This document shows, one piece after another, positions 34,253 through 37,684 of a stretch of DNA of 64,000 nt. The position numbers and the translations under genes were made by a program. Below the pieces are notes generated by a model that searched no databases, had not been told where the DNA came from, and was given only the letters and a program-made list of their open reading frames with translations. Source of the stretch: Methylobacter sp. (GTDB taxonomy: Bacteria; Pseudomonadota; Gammaproteobacteria; Methylococcales; Methylomonadaceae); the NCBI GenBank assembly GCA_030699385.1, contig JAUYMY010000022.1, positions 1-64,000 on the forward strand, read 5' to 3'. Numbering within the stretch: the first letter of the stretch is position 1; each line of letters starts with the position of its first letter.

Positions 34253-36121
34253 ATGAGCGCTGTCCTGAAAGAAATTACGTCTACCGAGTCCAGTAGCGTA
34301 AAGATTGATTCCTACCCCGCATCAGAAAAAATCTACGTTCAAGGCTCACGCCCTGACATTCAAGTGCCAATGCGTAAAATTACGCTTTCCGACACACCCG
34401 CCCATTTCGGAACAGAAAAAAATCACCCACTTTATGTTTATGACACGTCTGGCGTTTATACCGACCCGAATGTGGAAGTGGATTTGAAAAAAGGTTTAAC
34501 CGCTTTACGCGCCAATTGGATTGAAGAACGTGGCGACACCGAAGAATTACCTGAACCGAGTTCGGAATATGGCAAAGAACGTTTAGCCGACAAAAGTTTA
34601 GACGAATTGCGTTTTGAGTTGATTCGCAAACCGCGTCGCGCTAAAGCAGGCAAAAACGTTTCGCAAATGTATTACGCGCGTCAGGGCATCATCACGCCTG
34701 AAATGGAATTTATCGCCATCCGCGAAAACCAAAAAATGGAAGAAATGCGCGAATTATGGAAAGACCAACATCCTGGTGATTCGTTTGGCGCGTCGATTCC
34801 TGACGTGATTACGCCTGAATTTGTCCGTGACGAAGTGGCGCGTGGTCGGGCAATTATTCCGTGCAACATCAATCATCCTGAACTTGAACCAATGATTATC
34901 GGGCGTAATTTCTTGGTGAAAATTAACGGTAATTTGGGTAATTCTGCGGTTACGTCGTCGATTGAAGAAGAAGTCGAAAAAATGCTCTGGGGCATTCGTT
35001 GGGGCGGCGACACGATTATGGATTTATCGACGGGCAAAAACATCCACGAAACCCGCGAATGGATTTTGCGTAATTCACCTGTGCCGATTGGAACAGTGCC
35101 GATTTATCAAGCACTCGAAAAAGTGAATGGCAAAGCCGAAGATTTAACCTGGGAAATTTTCCGCGACACGTTGATTGAACAAGCCGAACAAGGCGTGGAT
35201 TATTTTACGATTCATGCAGGCGTGCGTTTGCATCACGTTCCGTTGACCGCCAAACGTATGACGGGCATCGTGTCGCGCGGCGGTTCGATTATGGCGAAAT
35301 GGTGTCTTGCCCATCACACCGAAAGTTTCTTGTACACGCACTTTGAAGAAATTTGCGAAATCATGAAAGCCTACGATGTGGCGTTTTCATTGGGTGACGG
35401 GCTGCGTCCAGGTTCGATTTATGACGCGAATGACGCGGCACAATTTGGCGAACTCGAAACGCTCGGCGAATTGACAAAAATCGCGTGGAAACACGATGTG
35501 CAAACCATGATTGAAGGCCCTGGACACGTTCCGTTGCACATGATTAAAGTCAACATGGACAAACAGCTTGAAGAATGTGGCGAAGCACCTTTTTATACGT
35601 TAGGGCCTCTCACGACTGATATTGCCCCAGGTTATGACCACATTACCTCAGCGATTGGCGCGGCAAATATCGGTTGGTACGGTTGCGCGATGCTGTGTTA
35701 TGTCACGCAAAAAGAACATTTAGGGCTGCCGAATAAACAAGATGTGCGCGAAGGCATTGTGACTTACAAAATCGCCGCCCATGCGGCGGATTTGGCGAAA
35801 GGCCATCCGGGCGCGCAAGCGCGCGATAACGCCATGTCCAAGGCGCGTTTTGAATTCCGATGGGAAGATCAATTCAACATCGGCCTCGACCCTGAAAAAG
35901 CGCGTGAATTCCACGATGAAACTTTGCCAAAACAATCTTCAAAAGTCGCGCATTTCTGTTCGATGTGTGGCCCGCATTTCTGTTCGATGAAAATCAGCCA
36001 AGACGTGCGCGATTATGCGAATGCCAAAGGCGTTGCCGAAGAAGAGGCGTTGAAACTCGGCATGGACGAAAAATCGCAAGAATTTTTAAATGAAGGTGCG
36101 GCAATTTATCACGAGGTTTAA
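34253..36121 (+). CDS. thiC: Phosphomethylpyrimidine synthase ThiC
   Basis: The 622-residue radical-SAM enzyme rearranges AIR into the thiamine pyrimidine HMP-P. The 4Fe-4S motif CSMCGPHFC (C569, C572, C577) is intact, and the length is normal. ATG 34253 follows the riboswitch. Its synonymous codon choice differs from nearby genes (many CCT proline codons where neighbours prefer CCG), suggesting that at least part was acquired. Its last 37 codons are repeated in diverged form at 37571-37684. Confidence 0.97.
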
Positions 36122-36139
36122 GGGTTTGTAATTTTGATG

Positions 36140-36164
36140 AGTAGCGGGTTGAAGGCTCGCTACT
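36140..36164 (+). terminator. Hairpin after thiC
   Basis: AGTAGCG and CGCTACT pair around an 11-base loop 18 bases after the thiC stop, followed by a moderately T-rich stretch. It is a possible terminator. Confidence 0.45.
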
Positions 36165-36197
36165 TGTTGTGTGTATTTAGAGGCATGCGATTAAATT

Positions 36198-36962
36198 ATG
36201 ATTTGTTGGATTTGTAACGCCACAGAGGCGGACACTAAAGAGCATATAATCAAAAAGTCAGATATAACTCGAGCCTTTGGAAAAGGAAGTTATAGCGGTG
36301 GCAATGCTCCTGTTCATGTTCATGTTCATGTTCATGTTAAAAACGGAAAAATTAGCGATATTCAAGGAGCAGATTCTAATAAAGTTAAATATGAAGCAAA
36401 TTTATGTAAGGCTTGTAATGGTGCCAATACGCAGCCTTTCGATAAAGCGTATGACAAATTCATAAGCTATATTTATGTAAATGAAGCATCAATTTTAAAA
36501 AAGAGATTTATAGATTTTTTTGATGTTTATGGCGAAGAATTCGAGAAGGGGCAAAGAGATTTGTATAAGTATTACGCAAAATCATTTGGTTGTCGTTTGG
36601 TTAATGCTAACCAAGTTGTTCCAAGTGATATATCAAGTTTATTTTTTAAAGACTCTTTTTCTACTGGACTTAGAATTAACTTTGCTGTGAACGAAGATGT
36701 TTTAACTATGCCCAATGAAGACAGAGATGGTTTTATTGGAAAAGGTGATTTAATTGGATGGTCTAATAAAAGCAAGACTAAAAAAGTAAAGGAATATACC
36801 GAATACACATGGAGCGAACATGTAACATGGTTATTCGCATTCTTTTGGTACAACAAATTTCCAGATGGTTGTTTAGGTTCTACATGGGTTGCAGACAACC
36901 AATTCATTTATTTAGGTAGTATTGAATTATCAGATGAACAACGTAAAAACTTAATGAAATAA
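36198..36962 (+). CDS. HNH-like zinc-finger protein, putative nuclease
   Basis: The 254-residue protein begins CWIC (C3, C6), has EH at 15-16 and a second CKAC pair (C70, C73) followed by NGAN. This C2...H...C2...N spacing suits an HNH endonuclease finger, but I cannot confirm the family. Residues 40-47 are HVHVHVHV, encoded by a CATGTT hexamer tract. The rest is lysine/phenylalanine-rich with no known motif. Composition is clearly AT-rich and foreign-looking. It lies within the block bracketed by two thiC 3' ends. Confidence 0.65.
   Translation: MICWICNATEADTKEHIIKKSDITRAFGKGSYSGGNAPVHVHVHVHVKNGKISDIQGADSNKVKYEANLCKACNGANTQPFDKAYDKFISYIYVNEASILKKRFIDFFDVYGEEFEKGQRDLYKYYAKSFGCRLVNANQVVPSDISSLFFKDSFSTGLRINFAVNEDVLTMPNEDRDGFIGKGDLIGWSNKSKTKKVKEYTEYTWSEHVTWLFAFFWYNKFPDGCLGSTWVADNQFIYLGSIELSDEQRKNLMK
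36312..36338. repeat. CATGTT hexamer tract
   Basis: Four in-frame CATGTT units encode the HVHVHVHV run. Because the unit is six bases, gain or loss of units would lengthen or shorten the protein without a frameshift. Confidence 0.7.
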
Positions 36963-37005
36963 CATGACCTACCCCCCAAAATTCAACGAAGAAAAATCCA
37001 CCACA

Positions 37006-37127
37006 ATGAAAACCCTAAAATATCTCATTTACCGCTAAGGCGATTATTACGTTTCACAATGTTTAAACGTCGGAATGGCAAGTTTTGGATTCAACGATTG
37101 ATGAATGGGCGGTTTTTTTTCAAATAA
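37006..37127 (+). pseudogene. hicB antitoxin relic
   Basis: The frame from 37006 reads MKTLKYLIYR, then a TAA stop, then GDYYVSQCLNVGMASFG, then a frameshift into STIDEWAVFF. This follows the HicB N-terminal pattern (YLIYREGDYYVSQCLNV..SFGxTIDEAV) with E changed to a stop. No hicA is seen. An upstream in-frame ATG is at 36964. It is a dead toxin-antitoxin fragment in the cargo block. Confidence 0.7.
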
Positions 37128-37145
37128 CTTTTAGGAGCTACCACG

Positions 37146-37370
37146 ATGCACGCCATTGAATTACCCGTAAGCATTAACCATCAGCACCAAATTATTTTGC
37201 AATTACCGCCAACCATTCAGCCACAAAAAGCCAAAGTGATTGTCATGTACGACGATTTTGAAAAGACAAACAAACCGATAAAATTGGGTTTATTTCAAGG
37301 CAAAATAGACGTGAGCGATGATTTTAATGAACCGTTGCCCGACAGTTTTTGGTTGAATGGTGAATGGTGA
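37146..37370 (+). CDS. VapB-type antitoxin of a PIN-domain toxin
   Basis: The 74-residue protein has a short N-terminal beta/helical segment and the C-terminal pattern IKLGLFQGKIDVSDDFNEPLPDSFW that is typical of antitoxins paired with PIN-domain toxins (the KGKIxMSDDFDEPLxxF tail). TAGGAG lies eight bases before the ATG. The last codons (NGEW) and stop fall in the seven-base repeat array. Its toxin, directly downstream, is truncated, so the antitoxin is probably an orphan. Confidence 0.75.
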   Translation: MHAIELPVSINHQHQIILQLPPTIQPQKAKVIVMYDDFEKTNKPIKLGLFQGKIDVSDDFNEPLPDSFWLNGEW

Positions 37371-37409
37371 ATGGTGAATGGTGAATTGTGAATTGTGAAT
37401 TGTGAATTG
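37354..37409. repeat. Heptanucleotide array between vapB and vapC
   Basis: Four units of TGAATGG (37354-37381) are followed by four of TGAATTG (37382-37409). The antitoxin stop (37368-37370) lies inside the array, and the toxin GTG start begins at its last base. A unit of seven changes reading frame with each gain or loss. Confidence 0.85.
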
Positions 37410-37684
37410 TGAGATTGTTGCTCGATACTCATGCGTTTCTTTGGTTAAACGATGACAATCCGAAACTCTCTCAAAAAATTAGAGAATTTTGTCTTTCTGG
37501 TGAACATTCGTTTTATTTGAGTATTGCCTCAGCGTGGGAAATTCAAATCAAAGTACAACTCGGAAAGTTGCGCGATTATGCCAAAGCTAAAGGTATTGCC
37601 GAAGAAGAGGCGCTAAAATTAGGCATGGATGAAAAGTCACAGCAGTTCCTTGATGAAGGCGCGGATATTTATCATAAGGTGTAA
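37409..37684 (+). pseudogene. VapC-ThiC chimera: PIN toxin N-terminus joined to thiC 3' end
   Basis: From GTG 37409 the 91-codon frame starts as a PIN-domain toxin (MRLLLDTHAFLW, D6; SAWEIQIKVQLGKL, E44) up to about residue 54. Without a break it continues as the end of ThiC: residues 55-91 match ThiC 586-622 at 31 of 37 positions. The C-terminal half of the PIN domain with its remaining acidic residues is missing, so toxin activity is not expected. The DNA of the thiC part differs from the full-length thiC end at roughly a quarter of positions. The junction lies in the shared word TGCGCGATTATGC. Confidence 0.85.

Follow-up and report, generated by a model that had tools for sequence, protein, structure and literature searches.

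Integrative islands able to rebuild the end of the gene they target leave that gene end repeated beyond the cargo. In homology-facilitated illegitimate recombination (HFIR), as outlined in PMC3240628, linear incoming DNA is integrated in a RecA-dependent manner through one homologous end and one illegitimate end, the latter located in non-homologous incoming DNA and mostly sharing 3–10 bp, and a deletion of recipient DNA of similar size is generally observed. In the merodiploidy of Streptococcus pneumoniae, the account in PMC3784515 invokes alternative pairing at two places of the chromosome, where it is a repeat that pairs, with approximately 100–900 kb duplicated. The present study concerns the gene thiC, and the cargo genes located behind it, in a stretch of 64,000 nucleotides from a Methylobacter sp. 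contig (JAUYMY010000022.1; the whole stretch is called the window hereafter). This thiC is a mosaic, with a native start, a body from another genus and, on the far side of the cargo, a native tail that was left behind. The coordinates of the different parts are given in Table 1.

The end of thiC is present twice, as the tails T1 (36,006–36,121) and T2 (37,569–37,684), in tandem orientation and with the cargo between them. The original prediction had announced two thiC ends bracketing a cargo, with the last 37 codons repeated and 31 of the 37 residues identical, and this is what was found. The divergence of the DNA was also marked, although slightly below the quarter announced: the two tails differ by 25 mismatches over 116 nt (21.6%). 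They constitute the sole direct repeat of at least 60 nt in a search of the whole 64 kb, and in the genome that contains the window a protein search with thiC returned the full gene and T2, and nothing else. The word TGCGCGATTATGC had been taken as common to the truncated vapC and the second tail. In fact T1 and T2 both contain it because both are thiC, and the word common to vapC and thiC at the joint is only 2 bp long (TG).

For the comparison with relatives, g1 designates the window's genus, g14, g32, g3 and g15 are other genera of the same family, and G and L numbers designate genomes and loci, respectively; the genomes compared are mostly drafts. In a sliding comparison, codons 1–20 of thiC were 98% like g1 (locus L004) and codons 21–40 were 98% like g14. 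The switch falls between the third positions of codons 21 and 24, within 8 bp. Beyond codon 40, g14 was nearer than g1 in every segment save one (codons 521–560). A quick tree of codons 26–584 with 50 rows placed the window's thiC inside g14, at starred nodes with Shimodaira–Hasegawa-like approximate likelihood ratio test values of 96, 99 and 98 (nodes of 4, 5 and 10 rows), and forcing the thiC body with g1 was rejected by the approximately unbiased (AU) test (p = 1.5e-8). For the last 37 codons, the grouping of T1 and T2 as sisters, named beforehand as the result that would speak against the mosaic, was rejected both in a 51-row tail tree (p = 0.0005) and in a reduced tree (p = 0.0008). T1 forced with g1 was rejected in the tail tree (p = 1.6e-16). 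When 11 long or ungrouped rows were removed from this tree, T2 grouped with g1 at 100/99, and its placement with g14 was rejected (p = 0.0017). The alignment of the tails and of the whole gene with relatives, as had been suggested, thus assigned T1 and the body to g14 and T2 to the window's genus. Judged from these comparisons, codons 1–21 and T2 are native, and codons 24–622, T1 and the cargo are from g14, the nearest genomes being G195, G210 and G167.

The loci of the same genus show the situation without cargo. A thiC search covered 61 genomes (the window's own, and those of the genus, family and order) and found the gene in 59. Among the 22 other g1 genomes, 21 had a single thiC match and one had none, and none showed a second tail. 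Of 20 same-genus loci, 18 had usp within approximately 350 bases behind their single thiC, the uninterrupted thiC–usp junction that was to be sought in close genomes; in the loci L004 and L006 no usp was present behind thiC within the stretch compared. By blastn, the window's cargo was not in any of the 20 same-genus loci, nor did it match the thiC loci of 29 relatives. On the donor side, the segment 34,324–37,568 reads as one g14-like stretch. Matches to both vapB and vapC were found in G195 and G159, the former carrying an intact vapC, and the right joint of the window connects the donor vapC to codon 586 of the native thiC.

The most probable explanation, in which we have good confidence, is that a foreign thiC together with its cargo replaced the native gene by an HFIR-like process and left the native end behind. 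Recombination of a foreign thiC with cargo was one of the two models of the original prediction, and it agrees with the position of the body in g14, of T2 in its own genus, and with the 18 of 20 loci free of cargo. We propose that a piece of g14 DNA of at least 3.2 kb, containing thiC from approximately codon 24, the HNH-like gene, the relics and vapB–vapC, entered the ancestor of the strain. At its homologous end, it would have recombined with the resident thiC at the 5′ edge of the shared sequence, and at the other end an illegitimate joint sharing 2 bp would have linked the interior of vapC to resident codon 586. Because this joint lies upstream of the thiC end, the last 37 resident codons would have been retained as a tail and vapC cut, thiC becoming a complete chimera. 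We infer that both joints stem from a single event, probably during natural transformation, perhaps with alternative pairing to the sister chromosome; where the joint precedes the end of homology, pairing with another copy of the chromosome may be required, as proposed for the merodiploids of S. pneumoniae. Such a locus would be a natural footprint of a one-sided homologous transfer between genera, by which genes are added and the host gene remains intact. Cargo without a visible integrase is often left unexplained; here the sequence reveals the donor genus, the recipient and both joints.

Like the products described in PMC3240628, the window has a homologous end, here a switch in register, confined to 8 bp at the 5′ margin of the gene, and what appears to be an illegitimate end with a very short shared word. 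Unlike them, it is a natural intergenus event and not a selected laboratory product, with 2 bp shared, no deletion and a duplication of 37 codons. Incoming DNA leading to a tandem duplication is also a feature of the pneumococcal merodiploids as reported in PMC3784515, but the window duplicates 114 bp and shows no pairing repeat.

Several observations weigh against the proposed event. The 2 bp at the right end are fewer than the 3–10 bp of most HFIR joints, and no native sequence was seen to be lost beyond the replaced homologous stretch, so that the typical deletion is absent. No g14 genome was seen with a full thiC, the HNH-like gene, vapB and vapC in the order of the window. Codons 521–560 were marginally nearer to g1 (0.917) than to g14 (0.908). 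In the 51-row tail tree, which has long outgroup branches, T2 with g1 was itself borderline rejected (AU p = 0.047), and T1 is nearest to g14 rows, yet the smallest starred set containing it comprises g14 and g32. The locus nearest to T2, L004, is one of the two without usp in the compared stretch. Finally, a relative could be where the mosaic arose, with a later passage to this strain. In favour of the proposal, a comEC-type gene was present in the six genomes tested, but it is a weak point, being also present in 10 of 14 controls.

Table 1. Parts of the thiC locus of the window, with their positions, strand and the evidence for each assignment.
Feature	Position	Strand	Evidence
thiC codons 1–21, native part	34253..34315	+	Identical to L004 (same genus) at 62/63 bases; g14 sequences divergent
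Left native-to-foreign switch inside CCCGCATC, homologous thiC aligned in register	34316..34323	+	Codon 21 TAC as in the window's genus, codon 24 TCA as in g14
thiC codons 24–622, g14 origin, including T1 (36006–36121)	34324..36121	+	Tree of codons 26–584 and AU test
Foreign intergenic stretch, thiC stop to HNH-like gene	36122..36197	+	By eye, similar to what follows a thiC tail in G159
HNH-like gene, function unproven	36198..36962	+	Relatives in 3/200 other family genomes; no family match
Relics: SocA-like gene start, small HicB-like open reading frame, GGGCGG and T-run (37107–37119)	36964..37120	+	Visual comparison with intact g14 genes and hairpins
vapB-like antitoxin gene	37146..37370	+	NCBIfam VapB E = 1.3e-5, under the cut-off; 86–89% to G195/G159
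Truncated vapC, first ~53 codons	37409..37570	+	52 residues, 98% identical to part of an intact G195 PIN protein
Right joint, 2-bp overlap (TG), donor vapC/native thiC	37569..37570	+	Against G195 vapC and same-genus thiC
Remaining native thiC 3′ end, T2 (37 codons plus stop)	37571..37684	+	Groups with same-genus tails 100/99; nearest L004, 92%
Native intergenic stretch and usp gene	37685..38298	+	78–79% to same-genus L011, L014 from the first base past the tail; usp 76–84% in 18/20 loci

The same kind of event appears to have recurred in g14. All 18 g14 genomes searched contained thiC, and in this genus truncated thiC copies separate blocks of cargo behind the gene, with Rpn-like nucleases, RTX/LamG proteins and toxin–antitoxin genes. 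A Pfam scan covering approximately 20 open reading frames (ORFs) of the cargo gave matches to PDDEXK_2, FG-GAP, RTX, the M10 serralysin C-terminal domain, LamG, PIN, VapB, BrnT, MazE, PemK, SocA, radical SAM/SPASM and T5orf172. A motif search of the 18 genomes, which detects only the copies that retain the motif, gave 23 places in 15 genomes, 14 in full-type thiC and nine in truncated copies. The latter were distributed in six genomes: three in G159, two in G195 and one each in G138, G185, G175 and G167. All nine lose their similarity to thiC at the same base. A tenth copy, in G159, is without the motif and starts near codon 592; 9 of the 10 truncated copies with a readable left edge thus start at one base, at the sole GGGCGG of thiC, and eight further 3′ pieces begin at contig ends, where the left edge is unreadable. 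The 400-base flanks upstream of the nine copies fell into five blastn clusters, one of them joined by a 22-base match alone. Four of the nine were internally deleted from codons 276–277, up to codon 455 (twice, probably one event), 529 or 593, two retained only approximately 42 bases before the next gene, and three were undeleted across the stretch compared. In G150 the three thiC 3′ ends did not form one clade (p = 0.00036), one being of the G159/G185 type and two of the G195 type. Repeated replacement by foreign alleles predicts such a mixture, with the caveat that this is a draft genome.

Outside g14, a search with the thiC C-terminal part covered 237 genomes of the family, and the ten non-g14 genomes with extra matches, the window's own set aside, were re-examined. 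In G130 (g32), thiC is followed by a pair of small ORFs on the opposite strand, one with a DUF4160 match, and by a second thiC end starting at approximately codon 591; both ends are of the g32 type. Most other extra matches looked by eye like genes split by contig ends or frameshifts, and the one in G099 was a 35% paralogue. The thiC-linked cargo with a repeated 3′ end, which had been proposed as something to look for in other genomes, is present in g14 and in G130. Cargo arrays with repeated thiC ends were not described in the titles and abstract beginnings among the literature matches listed. The starts of short thiC tails cluster at codons 586–593 (G159 C72, G195 C155, L178 in G130, and position 37,571 of the window), a clustering for which the detection limit may account in part. 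In g15, two full thiC genes with equal scores were located 27 kb apart on one contig (G125:C245; L173 and L174), which may reflect a true duplication or a fault of the assembly. In the array-bearing branch of g14 the neighbours of thiC vary (L036, L098, L099, L100, L049 and L105), with lepA, tex, nadA or gmk upstream and folE, trpS or mtaP downstream (names assigned by eye), and look as if thiC or the arrays were points of rearrangement.

The g14 joints fall on short words. A hairpin resembling a terminator, AACCGCCCGTTTTTCAAAAAAGCGGGCGGTTTTG with its variants, is present in the cargo and folds strongly (z −3.88). An integron cassette array was considered for g14; the hairpin, CCGCCCG...CGGGCGG, looks like an intrinsic terminator. 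Its exact pattern is rare, with eight matches in the 18 g14 genomes, five of which are on contigs that carry thiC copies. The truncated thiC copies begin at GGGCGG, the 3′ arm of this hairpin. GGGCGG and TAATTCGCC each occurred once in the thiC of 9 of 12 g14 genomes and were absent from the other three (G085, G190 and G200), which have no cargo at their thiC; because these three form one branch, the absence counts as one contrast and not three. GTAATTCGCC is common to the sequence preceding the hairpin and to thiC where the inner deletions start, and was found once in the same 9 of 12 genomes. Its 10-base part AATTCGCCTG was the longest shared word in seven of the eight g14 genes listed, and GTAATTCGCCTG was present in the thiC of 8 of the 12 genomes. 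The coincidence of words and edges is suggestive. The single-stranded DNA fold of the 74-base thiC module was nothing unusual (z 0.03), and a folded recombination site in this module is not supported.

It is possible, and we put it forward tentatively, that thiC in this family is an accretion site working without integrase, in which words common to the cargo terminators and to the gene steer the joints. The window would then illustrate the same process acting between two genera, the loose end having been trapped at another place. In this proposal the thiC-linked cargo would anchor by homology in thiC, and its loose end would be trapped at GGGCGG or GTAATTCGCC. Each round would leave the previous thiC 3′ end as a spacer and add toxin–antitoxin, Rpn and RTX genes, thiC remaining complete. 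If the g14 arrays grow in this way, a conserved biosynthetic gene would be a repeated landing place set by short words common with cargo terminators. These arrays are the larger lead. The proposal has its difficulties. The 3′ half of the hairpin was matched at six of nine joints (at most four edits), at one more by eye (G159c) and not at the last two. G035 has both words in thiC and yet no cargo there. GGGCGG is only six bases long, and other words of 7–9 bases common to thiC and the terminator are not used as joints. The words were noticed after the edges had been seen, so that their fit is not a test. The sister grouping of the two copies of G185 was not rejected (p = 0.137), and rem1 of g14 is nearer to thiC than rem2 but more diverged.

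An integrating element that targets thiC and brings a replacement 3′ end was the other model of the original prediction. Like an island restoring its target, the window has a gene end that recurs beyond the cargo; unlike such islands, the gene is foreign from its 5′ edge, the repeats are just 78% identical and no integrase was recognised. As predicted, none was visible: the HNH-like ORF, vapB and the vapC chimera gave no integrase match, and the smaller ORFs of the insert were judged by eye. Because thiC is foreign from codon 24 on, and not from the vicinity of the tail, insertion of an element at the native thiC end is ruled out by the switch at codons 21–24. For g14, where a site-specific enzyme would act at codons 250–276, the idea gains from the nine of nine motif-bearing copies that begin at one base with different flanks, and from the inner deletions, whose three distinct far ends correspond to starts within 4 bases of each other. 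Both boundaries nevertheless fall on words common to cargo terminators and thiC, the joint of the window at codon 586 is away from the g14 site, and the ORF lists of the window cargo and g14 loci, some of whose ORFs were scanned, showed no integrase by eye; such an element, as well as a site-specific enzyme at the g14 joints, seems improbable. A local duplication of the thiC end in this strain would account for two tails in tandem orientation, but it is ruled out by the rejection of T1 and T2 as sisters and has a negligible probability. The genome is a draft in 84 contigs, 87.8% complete, in which an assembly or binning chimera of two species might be suspected. Assemblers work with k-mer overlaps, for which the 8 bp (left switch) and 2 bp (right joint) common to the nearest known parents are too short, and the contig of 108,692 bases has native sequence on both sides, so that we regard a chimera as very improbable.

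A further candidate is offered by the cargo nucleases themselves, if Rpn-like (PD-(D/E)XK) proteins drive RecA-independent joining by template switching and the window copy either lost its rpn or owes its movement to such a gene while still in the donor. PDDEXK_2 was matched by three g14 proteins encoded behind thiC or one of its tails, and more ORFs with the same N-terminus were seen by eye behind thiC, thiC tails or other genes. According to PMC5350276, RecA-independent recombination in E. coli is increased by Rpn proteins, and a single site seems to have received rpnC on two occasions. The g14 genes resemble that Rpn/YhgA-like system in their position directly behind core genes, thiC included. 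However, the ORFs of the window cargo include no rpn, the switch at the left joint is homologous and in register, RpnA is presented in that report as having little sequence specificity, and gene-end duplication is not among the features described in its portions used here (PMC5350276); we consider this route doubtful. Somewhat less unlikely is an origin of the mosaic in a different g1 lineage, followed by its arrival through ordinary two-sided homologous recombination. The sequence gives no date for the event, and T2 is 92%, not 100%, identical to its nearest same-genus tail. Against this stands the lack of a known intermediate in the 22 other same-genus genomes, and the original joint would still have been made in the same way. 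Replacement by a foreign thiC with its cargo therefore stays the preferred explanation for the mosaic, whose two breakpoints and the origin of each part are observed.

The gene list predicted for the cargo was broadly right, although the HNH label is unproven, as no family matched. The HNH-like protein had no Pfam, NCBIfam or PADLOC match and no match to a PDB sequence at E ≤ 1, and PADLOC gave no match for the three cargo proteins. A single PHROG match was obtained at E = 0.32, a CxxC...CxxC pattern was seen by eye, and the AlphaFold model was uninformative (predicted local distance difference test score of 31.6). Relatives among the 200 other family genomes were found in G159 (91%) and G167 (83%) of g14 and in G145 (66%) of g3; GTDB genome contigs contained the gene at two loci. 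In G159, it sits behind a truncated thiC tail. The PIN domain of vapC is incomplete, being cut after approximately 53 codons, and its PIN match by itself is sub-threshold. The predicted hicB relic resembles intact small g14 ORFs, the single one tested matching DUF7387 only, under the cut-off. The GGGCGG followed by a T-run at 37,107–37,119 resembles by eye the 3′ arm of the cargo terminator hairpin.

Some minor features accompany these genes. A GTTCAT hexanucleotide repeat at 36,313–36,338 gives the HNH-like protein six extra residues (VHVHVH) compared with the three relatives. Between vapB and vapC, approximately seven copies of a 7-base unit (GAATGGT/GAATTGT) extend from 37,357 to 37,411; in G195 the two genes overlap directly, and the unit seems expanded in the window. 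Away from thiC, the g14 loci L170 and L171 contain by eye an Rpn-like ORF, a large RTX/LamG-type ORF and the cargo hairpin immediately after other genes, in L171 after a lspA-like gene, with no repeated gene end seen, and in L169 this hairpin lies beside trpS (by eye). In L089 (reversed, 402–2421), a g14 radical SAM/SPASM protein, the only one of the block tested by Pfam, is accompanied by a short peptide and a small ORF, an arrangement resembling a peptide-modification cluster. A 27-base inverted repeat, 85% complementary, is present at 37,699–37,825 between the native thiC tail and usp, in a stretch that matches L011 and L014.

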